Made by a program: the position numbers and the translations under genes. A DNA stretch of 64,000 nucleotides, from the NCBI GenBank assembly GCA_025210295.1, contig JAOASC010000044.1, positions 1 to 64,000 on the forward strand, read 5' to 3'. The DNA is from Flavobacteriales bacterium (GTDB lineage Bacteria > Bacteroidota > Bacteroidia > Flavobacteriales_D > Parvicellaceae). The notes under the pieces are model-generated. The model was not told where the DNA came from and made no database searches. It was given only the letters and a program-made list of their open reading frames with translations. Of this stretch, positions 50,158 through 61,009 are shown in pieces (position 1 is the stretch's first letter; each line of letters begins with the position of its first letter).

Positions 50158-50253
50158 AACAATTCACGATACATTGTTCGTATATCTTTTGTCGTACACT
50201 TTCTTATTGTCAAACTTGATATTAATTTTATGTTAAGCAAAAGTGATAGAACA

Positions 50254-51189
50254 ATGAAAAAAATACTTTTATACCTCTTATTTCCATTAAGTATATATAG
50301 CCAAGAGAACTATATAATAGATTTTTATGGCTTAGATTCTGTCAACTATGCTTTCGTTAATACTAATGCTTTGGTTAAAGAACGTTGGGATATATTGGCA
50401 CAACCTAACTTTTGGAAAGAGGTTATGGTGTTGAGTCAAGATTCTTGTTTAGTAAATATAGCCGCAACAAGAGAAGTGTTGGGAAAAGATTCTTTTGTCA
50501 AATGGAAAGCTCAAACTGAGGATCAAAAATTAGCCTATAAAGACAGTGTAAGAAAAGTTTTTAACTTGGATTCAACAGAAAAAATTTATGTGACTTCAGG
50601 TAAAAGTCATTTTTATCAGTTTGAAAAAGTAATTCCAAGTATAAGTAAAGCCATACCAATCTTTAAAAAATATGATACAGACCCTTGGTATGCCCAAGCG
50701 ATTTTATTGATTGAGAGTCCTGGTAAAATAGAGTATTCAAATGTCGGTGCTTACGGGCCGTTTCAACTCATGAAATCTGTTGCTCGAAGTCATGGTCTTA
50801 TTGTCAATAAAACTGTAGATGAACGAAAAGATTTTGAAAAATCTGCAATGGGAGCAGCAAGTTTGCTAAGGAAAACTTGTATTCCAGAAGCGAAAAGGAT
50901 TTTAAAGAAGAATCAGATTTCATATTCTGAAGATGCCATTTGGTTCAAGCTATTTGTTCTACATATTTATCATGCTGGGGCTGGTAATGTAGATGGGTTA
51001 GTTAGTTCATTTAAAGAAAAAGTAAATGGACAAGAACTGATCACAAAAATGTGGCATTCTGAATGGGGAGGATTTAAAAACGCCTCTCAGAATTATTCAC
51101 AAGTTGCATTAGCTGCGATGTTAAACCTTCATGATTTTATCTATTCTAATTGTAGTGTGCTATACAGTTGTGATATTAAGGAACTATAA
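50254..51189 (+). CDS. Lytic transglycosylase (SLT domain)
   Basis: The start is ATG 50254 (311 residues); an ATG at 50230 would put eight polar residues before the signal peptide MKKILLYLLFPLSIYSQ. The SLT/lysozyme-like domain (about 125-290) has the catalytic Glu in ILLIESPGK, SNVGAYGPFQLMKSVARSHG, and LFVLHIYHAGAGNVDGLVSS. It cleaves the MurNAc-GlcNAc bond with formation of an anhydro sugar. Acting in the periplasm, it could help wall turnover or insertion of envelope machines. No LysM domain is visible. Confidence 0.9.
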   Translation: MKKILLYLLFPLSIYSQENYIIDFYGLDSVNYAFVNTNALVKERWDILAQPNFWKEVMVLSQDSCLVNIAATREVLGKDSFVKWKAQTEDQKLAYKDSVRKVFNLDSTEKIYVTSGKSHFYQFEKVIPSISKAIPIFKKYDTDPWYAQAILLIESPGKIEYSNVGAYGPFQLMKSVARSHGLIVNKTVDERKDFEKSAMGAASLLRKTCIPEAKRILKKNQISYSEDAIWFKLFVLHIYHAGAGNVDGLVSSFKEKVNGQELITKMWHSEWGGFKNASQNYSQVALAAMLNLHDFIYSNCSVLYSCDIKEL

Positions 51190-51369: not shown

Positions 51370-53268
51370 ATGTTAAGTCATATGAAGCTGAGGACACTTG
51401 TATATTTGTTTATAATATTTGTTTATTTCTTTTTTTCCTTTAATCAGTACAAAGATGAAAAGGTACATTTAGGGGGAGATAATGTTGCTTATTATTTATT
51501 AGCGAAAAACTTATCTCAAGGTAATGGTTATGTCGATAATCATGTTGTGAGTGAAAGAAATGGTGAGATTATTAAGTCTGTTCCTCATACACATTTTCCT
51601 CCTGGTTATCCAGCCTTGCTTTCTGTTTTTATGAAGTTTTTCGGGAGTGAAATTAATGTCGCAAAGAATGTCAATGGCTTTTTTTTATTGCTGTCTAGTA
51701 TCACACTCTTTTTTTTACTCCAAGCAATAAAGATTAATGAAAACATCGCTTTTATTTCATCGCTTTTTTTGTTGGGGAATTACTATATGCTCTACTTTTC
51801 GATGTATCTCTACAGTGAAGTCGCTTTTATGCTGTTTCTATTGTTGTTTCTGTATTCTTTTATAAAACAAATGGAGCATCAATTTTTTTGGAAGTCACCA
51901 TATTTTTATGTGTCTCTTGGTTCGATGATGGTGATGTTTTACATTAAATCAATAGCTGTAGCAGCCATATTTGCAATGTTGTTGTTTTTATTAAGTAAGA
52001 AAGAGTGGAAAAGAATATTGGTGTACGTAGGTTCATTTGTGCTGTTTTATTTGCCTTGGTCATGGAGGATGAAAGATCTAGCTCATACATCATACCTCCA
52101 TTATTTAACCTATAAGAACCCTTATAATCGAGAATTGGGAGTGATGGAGTTTTCAGATTATATCACTCGAATATTGATGAATTTTAAAAGATATATAGCT
52201 GTTGAAATCCCTGGAGGAATACTGTCTAATGACCCTTTGTATAACTATAAGGAGGATCCAGGGATGATGAGTTATGTCGTAGGGGTTGGAATTGTCTTAG
52301 TTGTTTTGTTTGGTCTTTTTAAATTAAAAAAATATTCAGGATATCTTTTTTTATCCTTAGGAGGCGTTTTTACCGTGTTGTTGTTGTGGCCAGAAGTTTG
52401 GTTTGGTAAACGATTTATTCTACCAATAATGCCAGTCCTTTTGGGGTTGTTTTTTTGGGGGATTTATCATTTGGTAATGGTTTTTGTGAAGCTGTTGAAG
52501 TTGTATAAGATAAAAAAGGGAATAGAGAAATATGGTGTTTACCTACTGTTGCTGTTTTTTATTCCTGGTAAAATCGGGTTTCATGAACTGAAAAAGAATG
52601 TTGATGCGAACCATATTCCTAAATATCATAATTATTTTCAAGCTGCCAAGTGGGTTAAATTAAATACTCCTGATACTTCAGTCACTGCATGTCGAAAGCC
52701 TAATTTGTTTCATTTGTATTCGGGAAAAACCGTAACTAATTATAGAAAGTCTTCCGATAAAGAAGAAGTGCTAGATGGGTTGATAAAATTGAAAGTAGAT
52801 TATGTTATTCTTGAATCATTAGGTTTTTCTTCTACTTCTAAATATTTGATGCCTACCATACAAAAATACCCTGGTAAGTTTAAAATGGAGTATAAAACAG
52901 GGAAACCAGAATCTTATGTGTTTCAATTTTTACCAGAAATGGGTTATGATGGAGAATGGAAAGGAGATAAAAAACATGGTAAAGGGAAGTACAAGTATTG
53001 GGATGGTTCTTCGTATGAGGGGGAGTGGAAAGAGAATATTAGAGAAGGAAAAGGGGAGTATTTGTGGAAAAGTAATAATCGATTTGTAGGGGAATGGAAA
53101 AATGACCTCAGAGAAGGTCAAGGCGTGTTGTTTTTATCGAATGGAAATATCATCAAAACAACTTGGGTTAAAGATAAAATGGAGGGGAAAGGAGAAGTTT
53201 TTAATGTCAAGACTAAAGAAAGAACTTTTGGCTTGTTTAAGAATAATAAGTTTATTCCTAATGTGTAA
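51370..53268 (+). CDS. PMT/ArnT-like membrane glycosyltransferase fused to MORN repeats
   Basis: A 632-residue protein (ATG 51370; ATG 51382 is an alternative that starts with a better-charged MKLRTLVYLF). The first 430 residues are polytopic with about ten helices and a GT-C-type first loop containing GGDNVAYYLLAKNLSQGNGY and THFPPGYPAL (an Asp near the end of the first helix, as in ArnT/PMT enzymes). A soluble region follows (about 430-520). Residues 526-610 are MORN repeats with a 23-residue period: YDGEWKGDKKHGKG, YEGEWKENIREGKG, FVGEWKNDLREGQG, then a degenerate fourth. MORN repeats usually bind lipids or proteins. GT-C enzymes use polyprenyl-phosphate sugars, which the DPM1-like GT2 at 54888 could make. 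The fusion is unusual. Confidence 0.85.
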   Translation: MLSHMKLRTLVYLFIIFVYFFFSFNQYKDEKVHLGGDNVAYYLLAKNLSQGNGYVDNHVVSERNGEIIKSVPHTHFPPGYPALLSVFMKFFGSEINVAKNVNGFFLLLSSITLFFLLQAIKINENIAFISSLFLLGNYYMLYFSMYLYSEVAFMLFLLLFLYSFIKQMEHQFFWKSPYFYVSLGSMMVMFYIKSIAVAAIFAMLLFLLSKKEWKRILVYVGSFVLFYLPWSWRMKDLAHTSYLHYLTYKNPYNRELGVMEFSDYITRILMNFKRYIAVEIPGGILSNDPLYNYKEDPGMMSYVVGVGIVLVVLFGLFKLKKYSGYLFLSLGGVFTVLLLWPEVWFGKRFILPIMPVLLGLFFWGIYHLVMVFVKLLKLYKIKKGIEKYGVYLLLLFFIPGKIGFHELKKNVDANHIPKYHNYFQAAKWVKLNTPDTSVTACRKPNLFHLYSGKTVTNYRKSSDKEEVLDGLIKLKVDYVILESLGFSSTSKYLMPTIQKYPGKFKMEYKTGKPESYVFQFLPEMGYDGEWKGDKKHGKGKYKYWDGSSYEGEWKENIREGKGEYLWKSNNRFVGEWKNDLREGQGVLFLSNGNIIKTTWVKDKMEGKGEVFNVKTKERTFGLFKNNKFIPNV

Positions 53269-53986
53269 TGAAATGATTAAGAAAATTTCCATACTTCTTT
53301 TGGTTAAGCATGATCGTACAAATATCCGTTTGATTCTCGATAAAATAAGAGAGGTTCAACTTGAGGATAATATTAGTAAAGAAGTTATAGTTGTTTATTT
53401 AAGCAAGATCAATGATCCTGTTTTAGGAATAGAGGATGATCCTGTTCAATGCGATGAATTTTCTGTTCGTTCATGTAGTATAACGCCCAATAAAAGCACA
53501 GGAAAGATGGTCCAAGAGACCATTCAAACGTGTTCAGGAGATTTTTTATTGATTCAAGAATTGGGGGTGCATTTTGATTCTACACTTTATAAAACGTTGT
53601 TAGCTCCTGTCTTTAAAGGGGGAGCAGATGTAGTATATGGGTCAAGGTACAAAGGAGGAAATGCCCATAGAACTTCTGCTTTCTTTCATAATACATTCAA
53701 TAAATTTTTGACTAAAATTTCTAATATGTTTACCAATCTAAATCTAACAGATGTAACTACTTCATATAAGTTAATAAGAACTGATATCGCCAAGCGTATA
53801 GTATTAAAAGAAGAGTGTTATGCTATAGAGTTGGTTGCAAAAGTTTCTAGAATCAAGGAGGTTAAAATATATGAAGTTGGTGTCTCATATCATGGCGAAG
53901 TTTGTCAAGTAAAATCAAGAGCTAAATTGGGAGCTGGAATAAGAGGTATTTATAGTGTATTAAAGTATAACTTATTAAAAGGTTAA
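53261..53986 (+). CDS. GT2 paralogue lacking catalytic motifs (likely pseudoenzyme)
   Basis: The start is ATG 53261 (241 residues, overlapping the previous stop by 8 bases) or ATG 53273; a longer frame back to 53102 lies inside the preceding gene and is rejected. The protein aligns over its full length with the intact GT2 at 54888-55613. Shared blocks are ADVVYGSRYKGGNAHRTS, SNMFTNLNLTDVTT, SYKLIRTDIA and KYEVGVSYHG-like KIYEVGVSYHG. Catalytic motifs are gone: IPAYNEE became LLVKHDR, VNDCSTD became VYLSKIN, and the metal site QDADLEYDP became QELGVHFDS. The frame is intact, so it is probably made. It may regulate or partner the active enzyme or the adjacent membrane transferase. Confidence 0.8.
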   Translation: MCNEMIKKISILLLVKHDRTNIRLILDKIREVQLEDNISKEVIVVYLSKINDPVLGIEDDPVQCDEFSVRSCSITPNKSTGKMVQETIQTCSGDFLLIQELGVHFDSTLYKTLLAPVFKGGADVVYGSRYKGGNAHRTSAFFHNTFNKFLTKISNMFTNLNLTDVTTSYKLIRTDIAKRIVLKEECYAIELVAKVSRIKEVKIYEVGVSYHGEVCQVKSRAKLGAGIRGIYSVLKYNLLKG

Positions 53987-53992
53987 AGCTGT

Positions 53993-54718
53993 ATGGAAGT
54001 TAAAAATGATGTAGTAGGAGAGTCAACATTATCTGCAATTAATAAAGCAGATAAGTTTAATGATTGGATGTATAGTACGATTGCAGAATTTTGTAAAGGA
54101 CATGTATTAGAAGTGGGAAGTGGTATAGGGAATATTTCCAATTGTTTTATTCGGGATAATAAGCAAATTATGCTTACAGATTTCAATGTAAGTTATTGTG
54201 AAACCTTGAGGAAAAAGTATCAGCACCACAAAAATGTATTAGGAGTTAAACTGATGGATTTAATTGATCCAAATTTTGATGAAAAACATCAAGATTTACT
54301 GGGGAAGTTTGATACGGTTTTTGCATTAAATGTTGTTGAACATATTCAAACGGATTTCACTGCGATTCAAAACTGTAAAAAGCTGTTAAGAAAAGGAGGG
54401 AATTTAATCATCTTAGTGCCTTCATACGATGCGTTGTATAACGGTATGGATAAAGAGTTGGGGCATTATCGTCGCTACAATAAAAAAAAGCTATCCACTT
54501 TATTTATAGCTAATGATTTCGAAATTATTCATAAACAATACTTTAATGCTATGGGAGTGTTTGGGTGGTTTTATACAGGGAAGTTATTAATGAAAAGGAT
54601 GATTCCTTCGAGCCAAATGGTGACTTATAATAAGCTCGTCCCGTTGTTTAAAGTAGTAGATAAAGCTTTGGTTCCCTTTTGGGGACTCTCTACTATAGTG
54701 GTAGGAAAAAAACGTTAA
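53993..54718 (+). CDS. Class I SAM-dependent methyltransferase
   Basis: A 241-residue cytoplasmic enzyme. The SAM-binding motif I is VLEVGSGIGNIS, followed by the acidic motif (LTDFNVSYCETLR), motif II-like FDTVFALNVVEHIQTD and motif III KLLRKGGNLIILVPS. The C-terminal part (GHYRRYNKKKLSTLFIANDF) is typical of methyltransferases in surface-polysaccharide clusters. It starts 6 bases after the pseudo-GT2 gene, so it belongs to that operon. The acceptor is unknown; a sugar or lipid-linked glycan is likely from context. Confidence 0.9.
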   Translation: MEVKNDVVGESTLSAINKADKFNDWMYSTIAEFCKGHVLEVGSGIGNISNCFIRDNKQIMLTDFNVSYCETLRKKYQHHKNVLGVKLMDLIDPNFDEKHQDLLGKFDTVFALNVVEHIQTDFTAIQNCKKLLRKGGNLIILVPSYDALYNGMDKELGHYRRYNKKKLSTLFIANDFEIIHKQYFNAMGVFGWFYTGKLLMKRMIPSSQMVTYNKLVPLFKVVDKALVPFWGLSTIVVGKKR

Positions 54719-54887: not shown

Positions 54888-55613
54888 ATGAATCCTGTTA
54901 GAACTTTATCTATTTTAATTCCAGCTTATAATGAAGAAAAAACCATTCATTTAATTCTGGATAAAGTGAGGGCAGTTTCTTTAGTTAGTTCTATAGAAAA
55001 AGAAGTCATTATTGTTAATGATTGCTCTACAGATAATACAATAGAAGCTGTTGAGAAGTATAAAAGTCAGTATCCGGAATTCCCAATACAATTGTATAGC
55101 CAAGAAGTGAATAAAGGTAAGGGGGCTGCAATACATAAAGCTATAGAGCAAGCAACGGGAGACTATTTGGTTATTCAAGATGCAGATTTAGAGTACGACC
55201 CTGAAGAATATAATGATTTGCTCAAACCAGTACTTAATGGATTTGCAGATGTGGTGTATGGATCTCGTTTTATGGGAGGTAATCCTCATCGAATTTTATT
55301 CTATTGGCACAGTATAGGGAATAAGTTCTTGACAAGTTTGTCGAATATGTTTACCAATTTGAATTTAACAGATATGGAAACTTGTTATAAGCTAATAAGA
55401 ACAGATATTGCACAAAGCTTAAATTTAAAAGAGCAACGTTTTGGTTTTGAACCAGAATTGACTGCAAAATTATCTCGAGTAAAGAATATTCGAATCTATG
55501 AGGTTGGGATATCGTATTATGGAAGAACCTATGAAGAGGGAAAGAAAATTGGATGGAAAGATGGTTTTAGAGCAATCTATTGCATCTTAAAGTATAATCT
55601 TTTCTCAAAATAA
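54888..55613 (+). CDS. DPM1-like GT2 glycosyltransferase
   Basis: A 241-residue inverting glycosyltransferase of the dolichyl/polyprenyl-phosphate-mannose synthase type. Motifs are intact: LSILIPAYNEEKTIHLILDK, VIIVNDCSTDNTIEA, GKGAAIHKAIEQATGDYLVI and the metal site QDADLEYDPEEY, with FGFEPELTAKLSR near the C-terminus. There are no C-terminal membrane helices, so it is a short soluble form. It probably makes a polyprenyl-phosphate sugar, the donor type used by GT-C enzymes such as the one at 51370. It is the active paralogue of the gene at 53261. Confidence 0.93.
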   Translation: MNPVRTLSILIPAYNEEKTIHLILDKVRAVSLVSSIEKEVIIVNDCSTDNTIEAVEKYKSQYPEFPIQLYSQEVNKGKGAAIHKAIEQATGDYLVIQDADLEYDPEEYNDLLKPVLNGFADVVYGSRFMGGNPHRILFYWHSIGNKFLTSLSNMFTNLNLTDMETCYKLIRTDIAQSLNLKEQRFGFEPELTAKLSRVKNIRIYEVGISYYGRTYEEGKKIGWKDGFRAIYCILKYNLFSK

Positions 55614-55621
55614 TAGCAGCC

Positions 55622-56536
55622 CTATAGTTCAGTTTCTAAAGCTTGAATAATCTCGTAAGTATCTTTGTTATAGATGTAGGTTATTAAAGAAAGGTTATCA
55701 ATGTTATAGGTGGTGTCATTAGCACTGTTAGGGAGTTCCATAGCAAAGTCATTGTAAATTTTATCACCTGCACTTATATTGTCTCCTAAGCGAGTTCCCC
55801 ATGCTCCATTAATAGTTCCACTCATTACATTATGATGATGGTAATTTTCTTCAGTTGTTCCATTGGCCATTTTTTGAGCGGAAATAACAGTTTTTCTAAT
55901 TAAATAAATCACGATATCATGCTCAACTGAGAGGTTAGTTAAAAATTCACTTTCGGTATGAATAAAGAGTCCTCTGGTTTGTGGAAAAAAGTTCGTTTGA
56001 ACTTGTATACCAGCTTTTACAGTGTTAGTAAGCGCAGCGTTTGTTTCGTTTGCCCATGATGTTGATGTATACCACAAAGTATTTCCTAAGCCATTACTTT
56101 GTCTATTGATTGTTCCAACAGGATTGGCGAAAAAGCTAGGGATTTCATTAATATAGATGTTACCTTCCTCAGTTCTAAAGTCCATTGGGAATTCTGGCGG
56201 TTCAGGGGCTTGAAACGTACTAGCAGTCCCTGCATGAATAGAAGCAACAAAAACTCTTCCAGGGTTGGCATCTTCAATGTTTTTTGCTACCACTGCAGCA
56301 GCAGGACAGTTGGTGCAGGTATGACCAGTATAGTCCTCTATCAGAACATTTTGTAGGATGTTTGAATTTGCAGTCCATGTTGGCCAGGTGTAGTTTGTTG
56401 AGTCGCCATTTGGAAATAAATCCCAGTTTAACCCACCCACTTTAGTAGGAATAGGTTGGGTAATTCTGTCACATGATAGCAAACCTATTAAAATAAATAA
56501 GGTAGTAATTGAAAAAGTTAATTTTATTAAACGCAT
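55622..56536 (-). CDS. Omp28-family outer membrane lipoprotein
   Basis: A 304-residue protein. The lipoprotein leader MRLIKLTFSITTLFILIGLL ends in lipobox LLSC with C22. A thioredoxin-like domain (about 62-170) begins NVLIEDYTGHTCTNCPAA with the CxxC pair C74-C77, as in Omp28-related proteins. The C-terminal half is beta-rich. In Porphyromonas gingivalis Omp28 is a surface-associated protein of uncertain role. It is the last gene of a TlpA-DUF6029-Omp28 operon; the DUF6029 stop is 4 bases upstream. A redox or thiol-handling role is suggested by the CxxC but not shown. Confidence 0.88.
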   Translation of the reverse strand: MRLIKLTFSITTLFILIGLLSCDRITQPIPTKVGGLNWDLFPNGDSTNYTWPTWTANSNILQNVLIEDYTGHTCTNCPAAAVVAKNIEDANPGRVFVASIHAGTASTFQAPEPPEFPMDFRTEEGNIYINEIPSFFANPVGTINRQSNGLGNTLWYTSTSWANETNAALTNTVKAGIQVQTNFFPQTRGLFIHTESEFLTNLSVEHDIVIYLIRKTVISAQKMANGTTEENYHHHNVMSGTINGAWGTRLGDNISAGDKIYNDFAMELPNSANDTTYNIDNLSLITYIYNKDTYEIIQALETEL

Positions 56537-56540
56537 AATT

Positions 56541-58232
56541 CTAAAAACTTGAGGTTAGGGTGAAAGTTAAACCATTAGACGCAGGAACTGTTCTACAGAC
56601 TCCTCCTACACAAAAGACTCCTGCACGTTGTCTACCATATTGTAAAGAAAATCGATGTGGGCCACTAACATAGCCAATGTTTCCTAGTAAATAATGTACA
56701 CGTAAATCTTCTTTTTTATTTCCGTAATTGTATTGGTCTAGTATGGCAAAAGACCAGTGTGGGCTAATGGTGTATTCTAATTGTGCAAAGGCCCAGTTTC
56801 CTTGATCCTGTTGAGTCCACAGGTGTTGAAGTTCTGTTCTAAGAGCATGTTTAGGTTTTAATTTGACAGTAAAATCAGCTACTGCAATATGTGCAAATAT
56901 TTTCTCATGATGTTTGGCTACTAGAATAGCTCTATCTTCAAATATAAAATTGAAGTAAGTAAAACTTGTTTTTAGTTTTTTATTTATTTTACGTTTTATT
57001 TCAATATTAAAATCTTGTAGAAGAATACTGTCACTCATCCTAAATAATTGAGTTTCATAACTTTTTCGAGCCCCATCCATATCATTAATAAATGTACGTT
57101 CAGGTACATAGGCAGTAGCAAAATTTAAAGCAATTGATGTTCCGTATTTTCCACCTATTTTAGTTTTTTTAGGGATTTTATAAATAACATCAGCTTGGAA
57201 AGCAATTTCTCCTTGGGCATTGGTTGCATAGGGGTATAAGGTTGATGCAAGGTTATAGGTGTGCTGCTTAGTTAGAGCAGGAATAAATCCAATCATTAAA
57301 TCTGTTGGACCAGTAGAGATATTGGTTGAGCGCCATAACAAGTTGTCATTGTGTTTAGCACTGATGTCAATTCCTAAACCTTTTTTAGAATATCCGAAAT
57401 TAAGTAATAGTCCTTCACCATTTTTGTAGATGTAATTAAAGTTAGAATCTTGATCATAAGGATATGGGTCGTTTTCTTTGTGTATATATTCTCCAGAGAA
57501 CCTGAATTTCCCATACCTCATGTTGATACGACCTCCATACGCTCCAACATTTTTAGGAAGAATAAAGTCGGTTGTTTTATTATCATTATTGTATTTACTT
57601 ACAAAACTACCACCAATAGCTACTTGGAATTTTGAGTCAACCAATAGACTGTCAAAAAGTTCATTGATATTTATTTCTCCATCTAAACCTCTTACGATAC
57701 CATTCCCGTTTTCAAATCCATCGTTAAATTGGTAGCGTTGTTTTCCTATTAGTCCTTTTAAGTAAATTCCTTTATAGGGATTGTATTTGACGCCTATCCC
57801 ATCTAAAGCGTTGTCAATTCCTAAGTTGCGTTCTTCATAGCTTCTTAGGATCATACCACTTCCAAACTGTTCGTAGAAATTACCTACTGTCACACTAAGT
57901 TTTTCTTTTGTCCAATTAGCATATCTGTATCCTAATCCTGTACCGTTAAATGTTGTTGGGTAACCCGATAGTGGGTTTAGGTATGATTCATACCTGATAC
58001 CTGCCGAAAAATTACCTCTATTATAATTAATATTGGTAAATGAGTTCATTCCCATTTTAAAATCAGGTAGAGCAGCTCCTATCAAAGAATCTTCGTTGTA
58101 AAGTTGGCTCATAACTTGAACGTTACCACTTATTCTTCCTAGGTCTAATGTTTCTTTTTCTTGACCAAAAAATGCTTGTCCTTTTAAAAAGACAAGCATT
58201 AGTATTAAAGGTTTAATGAATTTAATGTTCAT
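56541..58232 (-). CDS. DUF6029 outer membrane beta-barrel protein
   Basis: A 563-residue protein with a signal peptide (1-23, ending AFFGQ). The body has repeated amphipathic strands typical of an outer membrane barrel, such as FSAGIRYESYLNPLSGYPTT, GKFRFSGEYIHKEND and WSFAILDQYNYGNK. It ends NGLTFTLTSSF, with a terminal Phe as in barrel insertion signals. DUF6029 proteins are found beside TlpA and Omp28 genes in Bacteroidota. Two cysteines late in the chain (FCVGGVCRTV) could form a disulfide. No transport substrate can be assigned. Confidence 0.88.
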   Translation of the reverse strand: MNIKFIKPLILMLVFLKGQAFFGQEKETLDLGRISGNVQVMSQLYNEDSLIGAALPDFKMGMNSFTNINYNRGNFSAGIRYESYLNPLSGYPTTFNGTGLGYRYANWTKEKLSVTVGNFYEQFGSGMILRSYEERNLGIDNALDGIGVKYNPYKGIYLKGLIGKQRYQFNDGFENGNGIVRGLDGEININELFDSLLVDSKFQVAIGGSFVSKYNNDNKTTDFILPKNVGAYGGRINMRYGKFRFSGEYIHKENDPYPYDQDSNFNYIYKNGEGLLLNFGYSKKGLGIDISAKHNDNLLWRSTNISTGPTDLMIGFIPALTKQHTYNLASTLYPYATNAQGEIAFQADVIYKIPKKTKIGGKYGTSIALNFATAYVPERTFINDMDGARKSYETQLFRMSDSILLQDFNIEIKRKINKKLKTSFTYFNFIFEDRAILVAKHHEKIFAHIAVADFTVKLKPKHALRTELQHLWTQQDQGNWAFAQLEYTISPHWSFAILDQYNYGNKKEDLRVHYLLGNIGYVSGPHRFSLQYGRQRAGVFCVGGVCRTVPASNGLTFTLTSSF

Positions 58233-58241
58233 TGAATTGGG

Positions 58242-58733
58242 TTAATGTGCGTGTTTCTTAATTTGTTCATACAGCTCTTCTTCATCTCCAGCTGAGTAGT
58301 TGTTATGATCCCAAACGATATTCCCTTTGCCGTCAATTAGAAATGTATGTGGGACATTATTAACATTCATAGCTCTTTTTAATTCTCCATTAGGATCTAG
58401 TAGAACTTCGTATTCCCACCCTTGTCCGTTGACATAAGGTTCAACCCTACCCGTAGAACGTGAGTTGTCTATGGATACAGCGATTATTTTTACACCTGTT
58501 TCATCTTGCCAGTCTTCGTATTCTTCTGCTATAGTGTTTAGCTCTGTCTTGCATGGTTTACACCATGTAGCCCAAAAATTAACGACAATTGGATTCCCAT
58601 CGTTAGAAATTGTTGCTAAGTTAACAGTTTTGCCGTCTATAGTTTTAAGTTTAACTGCTGGTAATTTTTTGTTCTGAGCAACAATGCTAGTTAGACCAAT
58701 TAACATTGTCAAAAAAGTAATAATAGTTCTCAT
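58242..58733 (-). CDS. TlpA-family thiol-disulfide oxidoreductase
   Basis: A 163-residue periplasmic thioredoxin-fold protein with a signal peptide (1-19, before Q20). The active site is WATWCKPC with C58 and C61. Other features are the cis-Pro region (VNNVPHTFLIDGKGNIVW) and an AhpC/TSA-like core. Such proteins reduce disulfides in the periplasm or serve cytochrome maturation. It heads an operon with the DUF6029 barrel (9 bases downstream) and Omp28, both with cysteine pairs that could be substrates. Confidence 0.94.
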   Translation of the reverse strand: MRTIITFLTMLIGLTSIVAQNKKLPAVKLKTIDGKTVNLATISNDGNPIVVNFWATWCKPCKTELNTIAEEYEDWQDETGVKIIAVSIDNSRSTGRVEPYVNGQGWEYEVLLDPNGELKRAMNVNNVPHTFLIDGKGNIVWDHNNYSAGDEEELYEQIKKHAH

Positions 58734-58837
58734 AGTAGTTTAATTAATTTATTTTGAAATGAAAATAATTCAAAAATTAAGCCAAAGCCAAAGTAAACAT
58801 ACTAAAAAAAAGAAACAAGCAATAGAGTATAATTGTT

Positions 58838-58886
58838 TATTCTTGGAATCCTAAAAAACAAACTTTAAAATAGGAATCCAAGAATA
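58838..58886. promoter_or_regulatory. 16-bp imperfect inverted repeat between divergent redox/T9SS genes
   Basis: The arms 58838-58853 and 58871-58886 (core ATTCTTGGAATCCTA against TAGGAATCCAAGAAT) pair with one mismatch around a 17-base spacer. They lie between the divergent TlpA operon and the Omp28-like T9SS gene, just upstream of the latter's -7 box. It could be a shared operator. No T-run supports a terminator. Confidence 0.5.
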
Positions 58887-58923
58887 CTGTCATATTTTAT
58901 ATTAAGTTAATGTTACTTTGACT

Positions 58924-58931
58924 TATATTTG
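58924..58931 (+). promoter_or_regulatory. -7 box of the Omp28-like T9SS gene
   Basis: TATATTTG matches TAnnTTTG and lies 47 bases before the ATG at 58979. Confidence 0.55.
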
Positions 58932-58978
58932 TTGTTAAACGCTAGACATTTTTTAATGTATAAACATGTAAATAACTT

Positions 58979-61009
58979 ATGAAAAAACAATTACTTAGTT
59001 CAGTTACAGCATTATTATCAGCATCTGCTTTGATGGCTCAATTGCCAGTAAGTCAGACTGCGAGTAATAAAAATGTTGTCTTAGAAGAATTCACGGGGAT
59101 TTATTGTGGGTTCTGTCCAGATGGGCATAGAATCGCTAATAATATAAAGGCAGCTAATCCTGATGATGTGGTATTAATTAATGTCCATGTTGGAGGTTAT
59201 GCTAATCCAAATGGATCGGATCCTGATTTTAGAACGCCGTTTGGTTCGGCTATTGTCAATCAAACAGATTTACAAGGCTATCCAGCTGGAACAGTGAATA
59301 GACATCTGTTTGCTGGTAATTCTCAACAAGGAGGGAGCGGTACAGCCCAAGGAAGAAATACATGGACTTCTACTTCGTCAACAATTCTTTCTGAATCATC
59401 GTATGCGAATGTAGCTTTACAGGCTTCTTTAGATATACAAACTAGAGAGATTACAGTAGATGTCGAAGTTTATTATACAGGGAATGGAGCTGCAGCTAAC
59501 CGATTAAATGTGGCTTTGCTTCAAAATGGAATAGAGGGACCACAATCGGGGATGTCAGCTAATAACGCTCAAATTTTGCCGAATGGTAACTACGAACATA
59601 ATCATATGTTACGTCACTTAATTACAGGGCAATGGGGAGATACCATTTCAACGACAAGTCAAGGGACGTTAATACAACGTCAATATGTTTATTCAATTCC
59701 TGCAGATTTAAATGGAGTTGCTTATGAGTTGGGTGAATTAGAAGTTGTTGCTTTCTTGGCGGAAGGACAACAAGAGATTATTACAGGTGCTGAGGGACCT
59801 ATTAGTTATGTAATCCCTCCGGGAACGACTTTAGTTGATTTAGCATCTTCAACAAATATGCAAAGTCCTAATTCATATTGTGATGGAGCAGTTGTTCCAG
59901 AAATAACGGTGAATAATGCAGATACTGCTTCGATTACTTCTTATGAGGTGTCTTACTCTTTAAATGGGGGAACAGCTGTCACACAAACAGTTTCTAACCC
60001 GTTAGCTGGAGGGGCTTCTGCAACAACATCATTCCCTGGAATTACATTGTCTCCTGGAGAGAACGTTTTTACTTACACTGTTAATGCGTTAAATGGATCT
60101 TCTTACGTTGAGGTAGTTATGGGGAATAATTCTGCTACTTCGGAAGCAATTTATATTGTGCCATCAGCAGCATTTGCCCAGACGCATCAAGAAGGCTTCG
60201 AAAGTTCTAGCGTTGGAGCTAGTGCACCTAATAATGCTATTGCTGATAATCCAGATGATATTTCAGCTTTGGTTGTGAGTAACGCAGTTAGTAATAGTGT
60301 ATCCCAAGAGATAGGAGGTTTTGGAAAAAGCTCTAAGAGTTTTTTATGGAATTTCTTTTCTATTCCAACTGGAAAAAGCTCAATGCTTGTTTTTGAAAAG
60401 TTAGACTTTAGCGTTGGTACAGGGCATGGTGTTAAGTTTAACCACGCGTATGCTCAGTATCAGGCAGAAAATGATAAACTAGAAGTTTTAGTCTCTACAG
60501 ACTGTGGAATTACTTGGTCGAATGTATATTCTAAACAAGGTTCAGCATTGACTACTGCTAGTGCATCAACAAGTAGCTTTTTCCCTGCCGTTACAGAGTG
60601 GAAAAATAACTTTGTAGACTTAGCAAGTTATGCTGGGGAGTCTGAAGTTATCATTGCTTTTAAAGGAACTTCAGCTTATGGTAATAACCTTTTTGTTGAT
60701 GATATTCAAATTTTAGATGGAACAACTATTGGAGTTGAGGAAAATGAAGCATTAAGTTCGGCTACTGTATATCCAAATCCATCTAATGGAAACTCAGTAT
60801 TAGCATTGAGTTTATCAGAGCAGGCTGGTGTAAATGTAGCAATTTATAATAGCTTAGGTGAGTTGGTTGTTGCGAATACTACTCACAATCTATCGGCTGG
60901 AGTCGCAAATCTTAACTTAGACTTGTCTAATTTAAATAATGGTGTTTATTTTGCACATGTAACTATCGACGGTAGTACAGTCGTAAAACAAATAACATTA
61001 TTCAAATAA
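58979..61009 (+). CDS. Omp28-like T9SS-sorted protein with CxxC
   Basis: A 676-residue exported protein. A signal peptide (1-20, ending ALMAQ) precedes a thioredoxin-like Omp28 domain (about 30-265) with VVLEEFTGIYCGFCPDGH, the CxxC pair C43-C46, and NVHVGGYANPNGSDPDFRTP. A beta-sandwich and a MAM/jelly-roll-like region follow (about 400-585, ending VIIAFKGTSAYGNNLFVDDI). The type A sorting domain has VYPNPSNGNSVLALSL, VAIYNSLGELVV and LNNGVYFAHV. It should be exported by the T9SS. It is a distant paralogue of the Omp28 lipoprotein across the divergent promoter region. It has its own terminator. Confidence 0.9.
   Translation: MKKQLLSSVTALLSASALMAQLPVSQTASNKNVVLEEFTGIYCGFCPDGHRIANNIKAANPDDVVLINVHVGGYANPNGSDPDFRTPFGSAIVNQTDLQGYPAGTVNRHLFAGNSQQGGSGTAQGRNTWTSTSSTILSESSYANVALQASLDIQTREITVDVEVYYTGNGAAANRLNVALLQNGIEGPQSGMSANNAQILPNGNYEHNHMLRHLITGQWGDTISTTSQGTLIQRQYVYSIPADLNGVAYELGELEVVAFLAEGQQEIITGAEGPISYVIPPGTTLVDLASSTNMQSPNSYCDGAVVPEITVNNADTASITSYEVSYSLNGGTAVTQTVSNPLAGGASATTSFPGITLSPGENVFTYTVNALNGSSYVEVVMGNNSATSEAIYIVPSAAFAQTHQEGFESSSVGASAPNNAIADNPDDISALVVSNAVSNSVSQEIGGFGKSSKSFLWNFFSIPTGKSSMLVFEKLDFSVGTGHGVKFNHAYAQYQAENDKLEVLVSTDCGITWSNVYSKQGSALTTASASTSSFFPAVTEWKNNFVDLASYAGESEVIIAFKGTSAYGNNLFVDDIQILDGTTIGVEENEALSSATVYPNPSNGNSVLALSLSEQAGVNVAIYNSLGELVVANTTHNLSAGVANLNLDLSNLNNGVYFAHVTIDGSTVVKQITLFK

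Follow-up and report, generated by a model that had tools for sequence, protein, structure and literature searches.

The question raised by this locus is what a membrane glycosyltransferase of a Flavobacteriales bacterium might do with a C-terminal array of MORN repeats. The gene lies in a 64,000-nucleotide stretch of contig JAOASC010000044.1, the whole of which is called the window below. Its product joins a predicted polytopic GT-C core, a soluble domain, and the repeats (Table 1). We read it as a periplasmic glycosyltransferase that depends on a lipid-phosphate sugar and uses its MORN tail, on this view, to dock an acceptor or to dimerise, and we put the probability of this reading as a whole at about 0.5.

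Table 1. Features of the GT-C-MORN locus, in window coordinates.
Feature	Position	Strand	Basis
SLT (lytic transglycosylase) gene, to the left of the cassette	50230..51189	+	Pfam
MORN-tailed GT-C membrane glycosyltransferase, 632 aa	51370..53268	+	ORF list, Pfam, alignment
Membrane part, residues 1-404, 11 predicted TM helices	51370..52581	+	16-member alignment, loop charge
Soluble domain, residues 405-524, predicted periplasmic	52582..52941	+	16-member alignment, loop charge
MORN repeats and 15-residue remainder	52945..53265	+	Pfam, lag-23 test, PDB profile match
Degenerate GT2 (pseudo-GT2), likely start 53261 or 53273, 240-aa open frame	53261..53986	+	Motif comparison with relatives
Class I SAM-dependent methyltransferase of cassette	53993..54718	+	Pfam
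Intact polyprenyl-phosphate-type GT2, resident copy	54888..55613	+	Pfam/NCBIfam, synteny

The reading frame is open throughout and represents a single uninterrupted gene. The fusion of a GT-C enzyme to MORN repeats that was proposed in a first-pass annotation is real, both halves scoring above their Pfam cut-offs: PMT_2 spans residues 77-224 (E 6.5e-7; 30.1 bits, cut-off 26.1), and MORN matches in three C-terminal stretches (E 6.6e-19; 67 bits, cut-off 22.5). The repeats, which carry YxGxW and GxG, start in register at residues 526, 549, 572, and 595, and a 15-residue remainder, a partial fifth repeat, follows from residue 618. The 23-residue period noticed earlier is borne out by a self-identity of 25 in 85 pairs at lag 23, against a shuffle mean of 6.95; none of 20000 shuffles reached this value. 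A profile of the tail matches MORN proteins in the PDB at E 1e-42 (6t6q and others), and no TPR model in Pfam matches the window protein, so the repeats are to be classed as MORN. Tandem Repeats Finder reported no DNA-level array over the MORN region of the gene; since the repeats have diverged so far at the DNA level, the array is old, without recent expansion. In the curated libraries scanned, no standard family holds the fusion, as had been supposed: Pfam and NCBIfam list only its two halves or sub-threshold matches, and none of the NCBIfam models reaches its cut-off with the window protein or with the two further members scanned, L034 and L055. Literature searches, covering open-licence papers judged by their listings, found no description of GT-C joined to MORN.

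Match counts across the order, three of its families, and the phylum establish the fusion as a conserved small family, sparsely spread, and no singleton. In a search of 60 relatives, full-length fused homologues were found in G001 (52% identity), G004 (51%), and G046 (37%), and G003 has both the GT-C and the MORN parts in a gene split at two contig ends. The GT-C part, searched against the order, matches 18 of 399 genomes. MORN is present in 15 of these, counting the split gene of G003, and is lacking in two genomes of family f9 (frames of 534 and 533 residues) and in G063 of family f13. A profile search of family f8 matched 11 of 200 genomes, ten of them already among the 15; the eleventh, G794, has a partial frame that likewise ends in MORN. 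Family f9 gave matches in 2 of 114 genomes, neither with MORN, and family f11 one genome only, with the fusion present. A phylum-wide search with a GT-C profile matched 8 of 395 genomes at E 1e-20. Apart from the window, none of them shows MORN beside GT-C in the frames as far as these could be read: two frames are short and lack repeats, and five are longer, bear tails of another kind, and run off the edge of their stretch.

In a 24-row tree of the GT-C part, all 14 complete MORN carriers lie on one side of a branch whose support (83/90; present in 84% of bootstrap trees) is not strong. Four rows of the tree, those of the window and of three outgroups, are compositionally unusual. The tree favours a single gain of the MORN tail. 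Pairwise counts of substitutions, in which four of six pairs yielded MORN values and synonymous sites were saturated in several, gave dN/dS for MORN and membrane part, respectively, of 0.17 and 0.19 between the window and G004, 0.19 and 0.17 between G001 and G004, and 0.09 and 0.02 for the close pair G304/G106. The f8 pair G303/G385 gave 0.29 for MORN and no value for the membrane part. Purifying selection acts on the repeats about as it does on the rest of the protein; in the closest pair they are freer than the membrane part, yet constrained.

These results bear on one alternative to a docking or pairing tail, namely that the repeats passively cap or stabilise the periplasmic domain and bind no particular partner, so that the GT-C part alone would choose the acceptor. 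The relatives in f9 share the GT-C part and the soluble domain and do without any tail, and in the f8 clade the last MORN repeats are worn; both observations speak for it. Every complete member from the three families f1, f8, and f11 nevertheless retains the tail, under selection about as strong as that on the rest of the protein, and we regard a passive cap as unlikely.

The family alignment holds 16 members, the 14 complete MORN carriers and the two MORN-less members from f9. Pfam model PMT matches 15 of the 16 at E 0.01, and MORN matches 14. Thirty columns are invariant, among them G36-D37-N38, P77, P78, E150, W230, W340, R348, and, in the soluble domain, R442-K443-P444. Enzymes of the GT-C/PMT clan (TMTC1-4, ArnT) are described in PMC7801869 as sharing three features: the first extracytoplasmic loop (EL1) holds an acidic motif, EL3 a basic residue, and EL5 an Arg in contact with the lipid phosphate. 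When the family is compared with TMTC and ArnT by motif position, rather than by structure, G36-D37-N38 falls in the first periplasmic loop, EL1, with D37 kept in 16 of 16; residue 192, in EL3, is Lys or Arg in every member; and R348, in EL5, is likewise kept in all. Agreement with the described motifs suggests an active enzyme, and the window protein is very probably a catalytically competent member of the GT-C class. A search of the PDB by sequence with the GT-C profile returned chance-level matches only, with no GT-C chain among them.

Hydrophobic segments and the Lys plus Arg fractions of loops, taken over 14 family members, fit 11 TM helices with the N-terminus inside and the C-terminus outside. 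Cytoplasmic loops have 20-32% of these residues, and periplasmic loops 6% (EL1), 0% (EL2), 14% (EL4), and 10% (EL5), with 20% in EL3, which has five residues. Because the loop boundaries were drawn by hand with a GT-C layout in mind, the result serves as a consistency check. Single-sequence AlphaFold gave a mean pLDDT of 44.2 over the full length and 36.8 over residues 397-632, too poor for fold reading, and the 11-helix topology therefore stands as a prediction rather than a model. The first-pass annotation had counted about ten helices; the polytopic core stands, while loop charge would put the count at 11. The MORN and pre-MORN domains both have about 15% Lys plus Arg, so that charge alone does not place them. 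From the helix count and the orientation, the MORN tail is most probably periplasmic, on the side of the active site.

The intact GT2 of the window matches Glycos_transf_2 at E 4.6e-33 and keeps the DxD-type motif DADLEYDP; its best NCBIfam model is AglJ, which scores 105 bits and so falls short of its cut-off of 325. Within the genus, the GT-C-MORN gene keeps company with a polyprenyl-phosphate-type GT2 and a methyltransferase: the gene order fusion, GT2, methyltransferase is found in G001 and, in reversed orientation, in G004. A GT2 of this type is no more than two genes away from the GT-C gene in six of the 14 complete MORN members (the window, its degenerate copy counted, and L031, L032, L059, L061, and L062), as it does in both MORN-less members from f9; the remaining eight have no GT2 alongside in the stretches covered, some of them on short contigs. 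The methyltransferase of the cassette occurs in 4 of 40 relatives (G000, G001, G003, and G004), all four with the fusion, and is absent from G046, in which the fusion is present. The GT2 is more widespread, with 27 of 40 relatives, and must therefore serve other enzymes too. In G023 and G008 (L100:1-1464, L101:3-1586), a GT2 of the resident type adjoins other polytopic, GT-C-looking membrane proteins, and for this reason the GT2 may serve several transferases. We consider it likely that the GT2 is the partner that loads the carrier for the GT-C enzyme. Methyltransferase and GT2, separate genes in the window, are fused in one protein at L068:2-1237 and L054:3081-4325, adjoining distant, tail-less GT-C relatives.

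In the sister genomes G002 and G006 (L095, L097), which lack the fusion, the counterparts of the window's 96-residue gene, its SLT gene, and its intact GT2 (86% identity) are directly adjacent, with the TlpA-like gene beyond. The fusion, the pseudo-GT2, and the methyltransferase of the window thus fill precisely the interval that separates SLT from the resident GT2. This is most simply explained by the insertion of a three-gene cassette, the GT2 of which could be dispensed with next to the resident one. Farther along the window, at 55622-61009, a DUF6029 gene and a gene for a TlpA-like thioredoxin lie between two Omp28 genes, the second of which has a T9SS sorting domain; the sorting domain and the Omp28 genes mark the window as Bacteroidota DNA.

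The neighbouring pseudo-GT2 of the first-pass annotation proved genuine. Its frame is kept at full length, and the motifs PAYNE, ND.S.DNT, DADLEYDP, and FGFEPE of its relatives are lost, the DxD-type motif being replaced; its Glycos_transf_2 match lies below the Pfam cut-off. Of the columns that do not vary among six intact relatives, it retains 19 of 45 in the first 110 residues and 44 of 76 in the rest, and comparison with the intact GT2 of the window gives pS 0.71 and pN 0.36. To judge from these patterns, it has the look of a pseudoenzyme that is still somewhat constrained, as opposed to a gene that has died, and erosion is greatest in its nucleotide-binding half. In a tree its end branch is 7.95 and its placement unsure, so that it may instead be a duplicate of the resident GT2. 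With its full-length frame beside an intact GT2, it is a possible regulatory pseudoenzyme.

A hint about the donor comes from G004 (L032:5129-6925), and also from G003 (L033), in which gmhA and an hddC-gmhB-like fused gene lie directly upstream of the GT-C-MORN gene. This is suggestive only of a heptose donor, and none is claimed, because heptose genes of the gmhA/hddC-gmhB type appear in the window genome only as partial matches elsewhere.

Taken as a pathway, the DPM1/AglJ-like neighbour GT2 would load polyprenyl phosphate with sugar on the cytoplasmic side, and the GT-C enzyme, in what we take to be the direction of transfer, would move the sugar from the polyprenyl-phosphate carrier onto a periplasmic acceptor. 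The methyltransferase probably modifies the sugar or the glycan. The MORN tail, set behind the soluble periplasmic domain, would be a protein-protein module near the active site, where it would hold a protein acceptor or partner or would pair two enzyme molecules through their C-termini. The protein-contact step is argued by analogy: in PMC7725318, MORN structures dimerise through their C-termini and are termed protein-protein modules, and membrane binding is unsupported; the dimer data are for apicomplexan and trypanosome proteins with longer arrays. We lean towards the hypothesis that the tail is a docking or dimerisation module. Tethering to the acceptor, one of the roles first suggested for the repeats, is the class of explanation we prefer. 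A bolder and rather doubtful extension would make the array a periplasmic platform on which a bacterial protein glycosyltransferase docks its acceptors, the bacterial equivalent of a TMTC with MORN in the place of TPR, with tails (none, TPR, or MORN) exchangeable and setting the glycosylation targets, and with the pseudo-GT2 regulating the resident GT2.

The first-pass annotation also offered membrane lipid as a ligand, and the opposite membrane or the carrier lipid might serve to position the enzyme. MORN was historically named as a membrane module, and junctophilins are among the PDB profile matches. Against this, PMC7725318, which re-evaluates other MORN proteins, reports TbMORN1 without membrane binding and re-assigns MORN to protein-protein contacts. 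The window protein, moreover, is already anchored by the enzyme's own helices. Lipid binding by the repeats is thus disfavoured, and we think it improbable.

Still less probable is a tail that holds the GT2 or the pseudo-GT2, coupling carrier loading to transfer, as had been proposed for the pseudo-GT2. The genes are adjacent in the window, L031, L032, L059, and L061, but GT2 enzymes of the polyprenyl-phosphate type are cytoplasmic, and tethering is disfavoured because the predicted topology sets the tail across the membrane, in the periplasm; in addition, eight of the 14 members have no GT2 alongside. That the fusion is a sequencing or assembly join of two genes, named at the outset as an outcome that would undo it, is ruled out by 13 further complete members from separate genomes that share the same join position. 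Nothing was found in favour of such a join, the split in the gene of G003 lying at contig ends.

A docking tail on a GT-C enzyme can be set beside known systems. Human TMTC1-4 are O-mannosyltransferases of the GT-C/PMT clan with C-terminal TPR repeats and, as described in PMC7801869, resemble the window protein, whose topology is predicted, in the 11-helix core, the cytoplasmic N-terminus, the acidic motif of EL1, the Arg of EL5, and the position of the C-terminal repeat domain on the active-site side. The window protein differs from them in that its repeats are MORN and not TPR, that a further soluble domain precedes them, and that its host is a bacterium. The likeness is one of layout and manner of working; we do not claim shared ancestry for the repeat part. 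The acceptor of ArnT is lipid A. ArnT and bacterial enzymes of the PMT_2 type (PF13231, PF02366) share with the family the PMT_2 match above cut-off in the window protein, PMT or PMT_2 matches across the members, and the logic of a lipid-phosphate sugar with a GT2 partner. They form a curated family without MORN, and ArnT has 13 TM helices according to PMC7801869, against the 11 predicted here. MORN1 and other MORN proteins (6t6q and others) match the tail in repeat sequence, as the profile score attests, but are soluble, eukaryotic, and cytoskeletal, with longer arrays, and MORN1 has no attached enzyme. TMTC provides a precedent for a GT-C enzyme that ends in repeats; what appears new is that the repeats are MORN. 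If the tail docks acceptors, MORN repeats gain a periplasmic, enzymatic setting in bacteria; GT-C acceptor choice gains a clean test system, with the tail present or removed and with natural tail-less relatives; and a GT-C core will have been joined to differing repeat types on its active-site side, in animals and separately in bacteria.

Five of the phylum matches (L070-L074, E 4e-21 to 2e-26 against the GT-C profile) resemble the window protein in having a repeat tail after the GT-C domain and differ in that the C-terminal tail is TPR-like and the membrane part only distantly similar. TPR models score above the Pfam cut-off in two of the five and weakly in the other three, the far ends lying beyond the stretch edge. 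The arrangement is a TMTC-like layout in bacteria. The closest relatives of the family thus have no tail, and TPR-like tails are found in deeper ones.

MORN repeats also occur in free-standing proteins. A scan of contigs with the single window protein as query found two loci, both free-standing proteins that match in the MORN part only, and a plasmid search found one match, again in the MORN part only. From the matches of an in-phylum survey, 11 stretches that contain long MORN frames were picked out; none of these frames has more than one predicted TM segment, and 10 of the 11 open with a signal-like stretch, judged by eye, and look exported. In a Marinimicrobia MAG, one 1183-residue protein consists almost wholly of MORN repeats (L037:4675-8789), and a second MORN frame, of 188 residues, overlaps it. 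In G003, about 2.5 kb upstream of the GT-C gene, a 586-residue, exported-looking protein with MORN-like repeats is encoded at L033:3832-5592.
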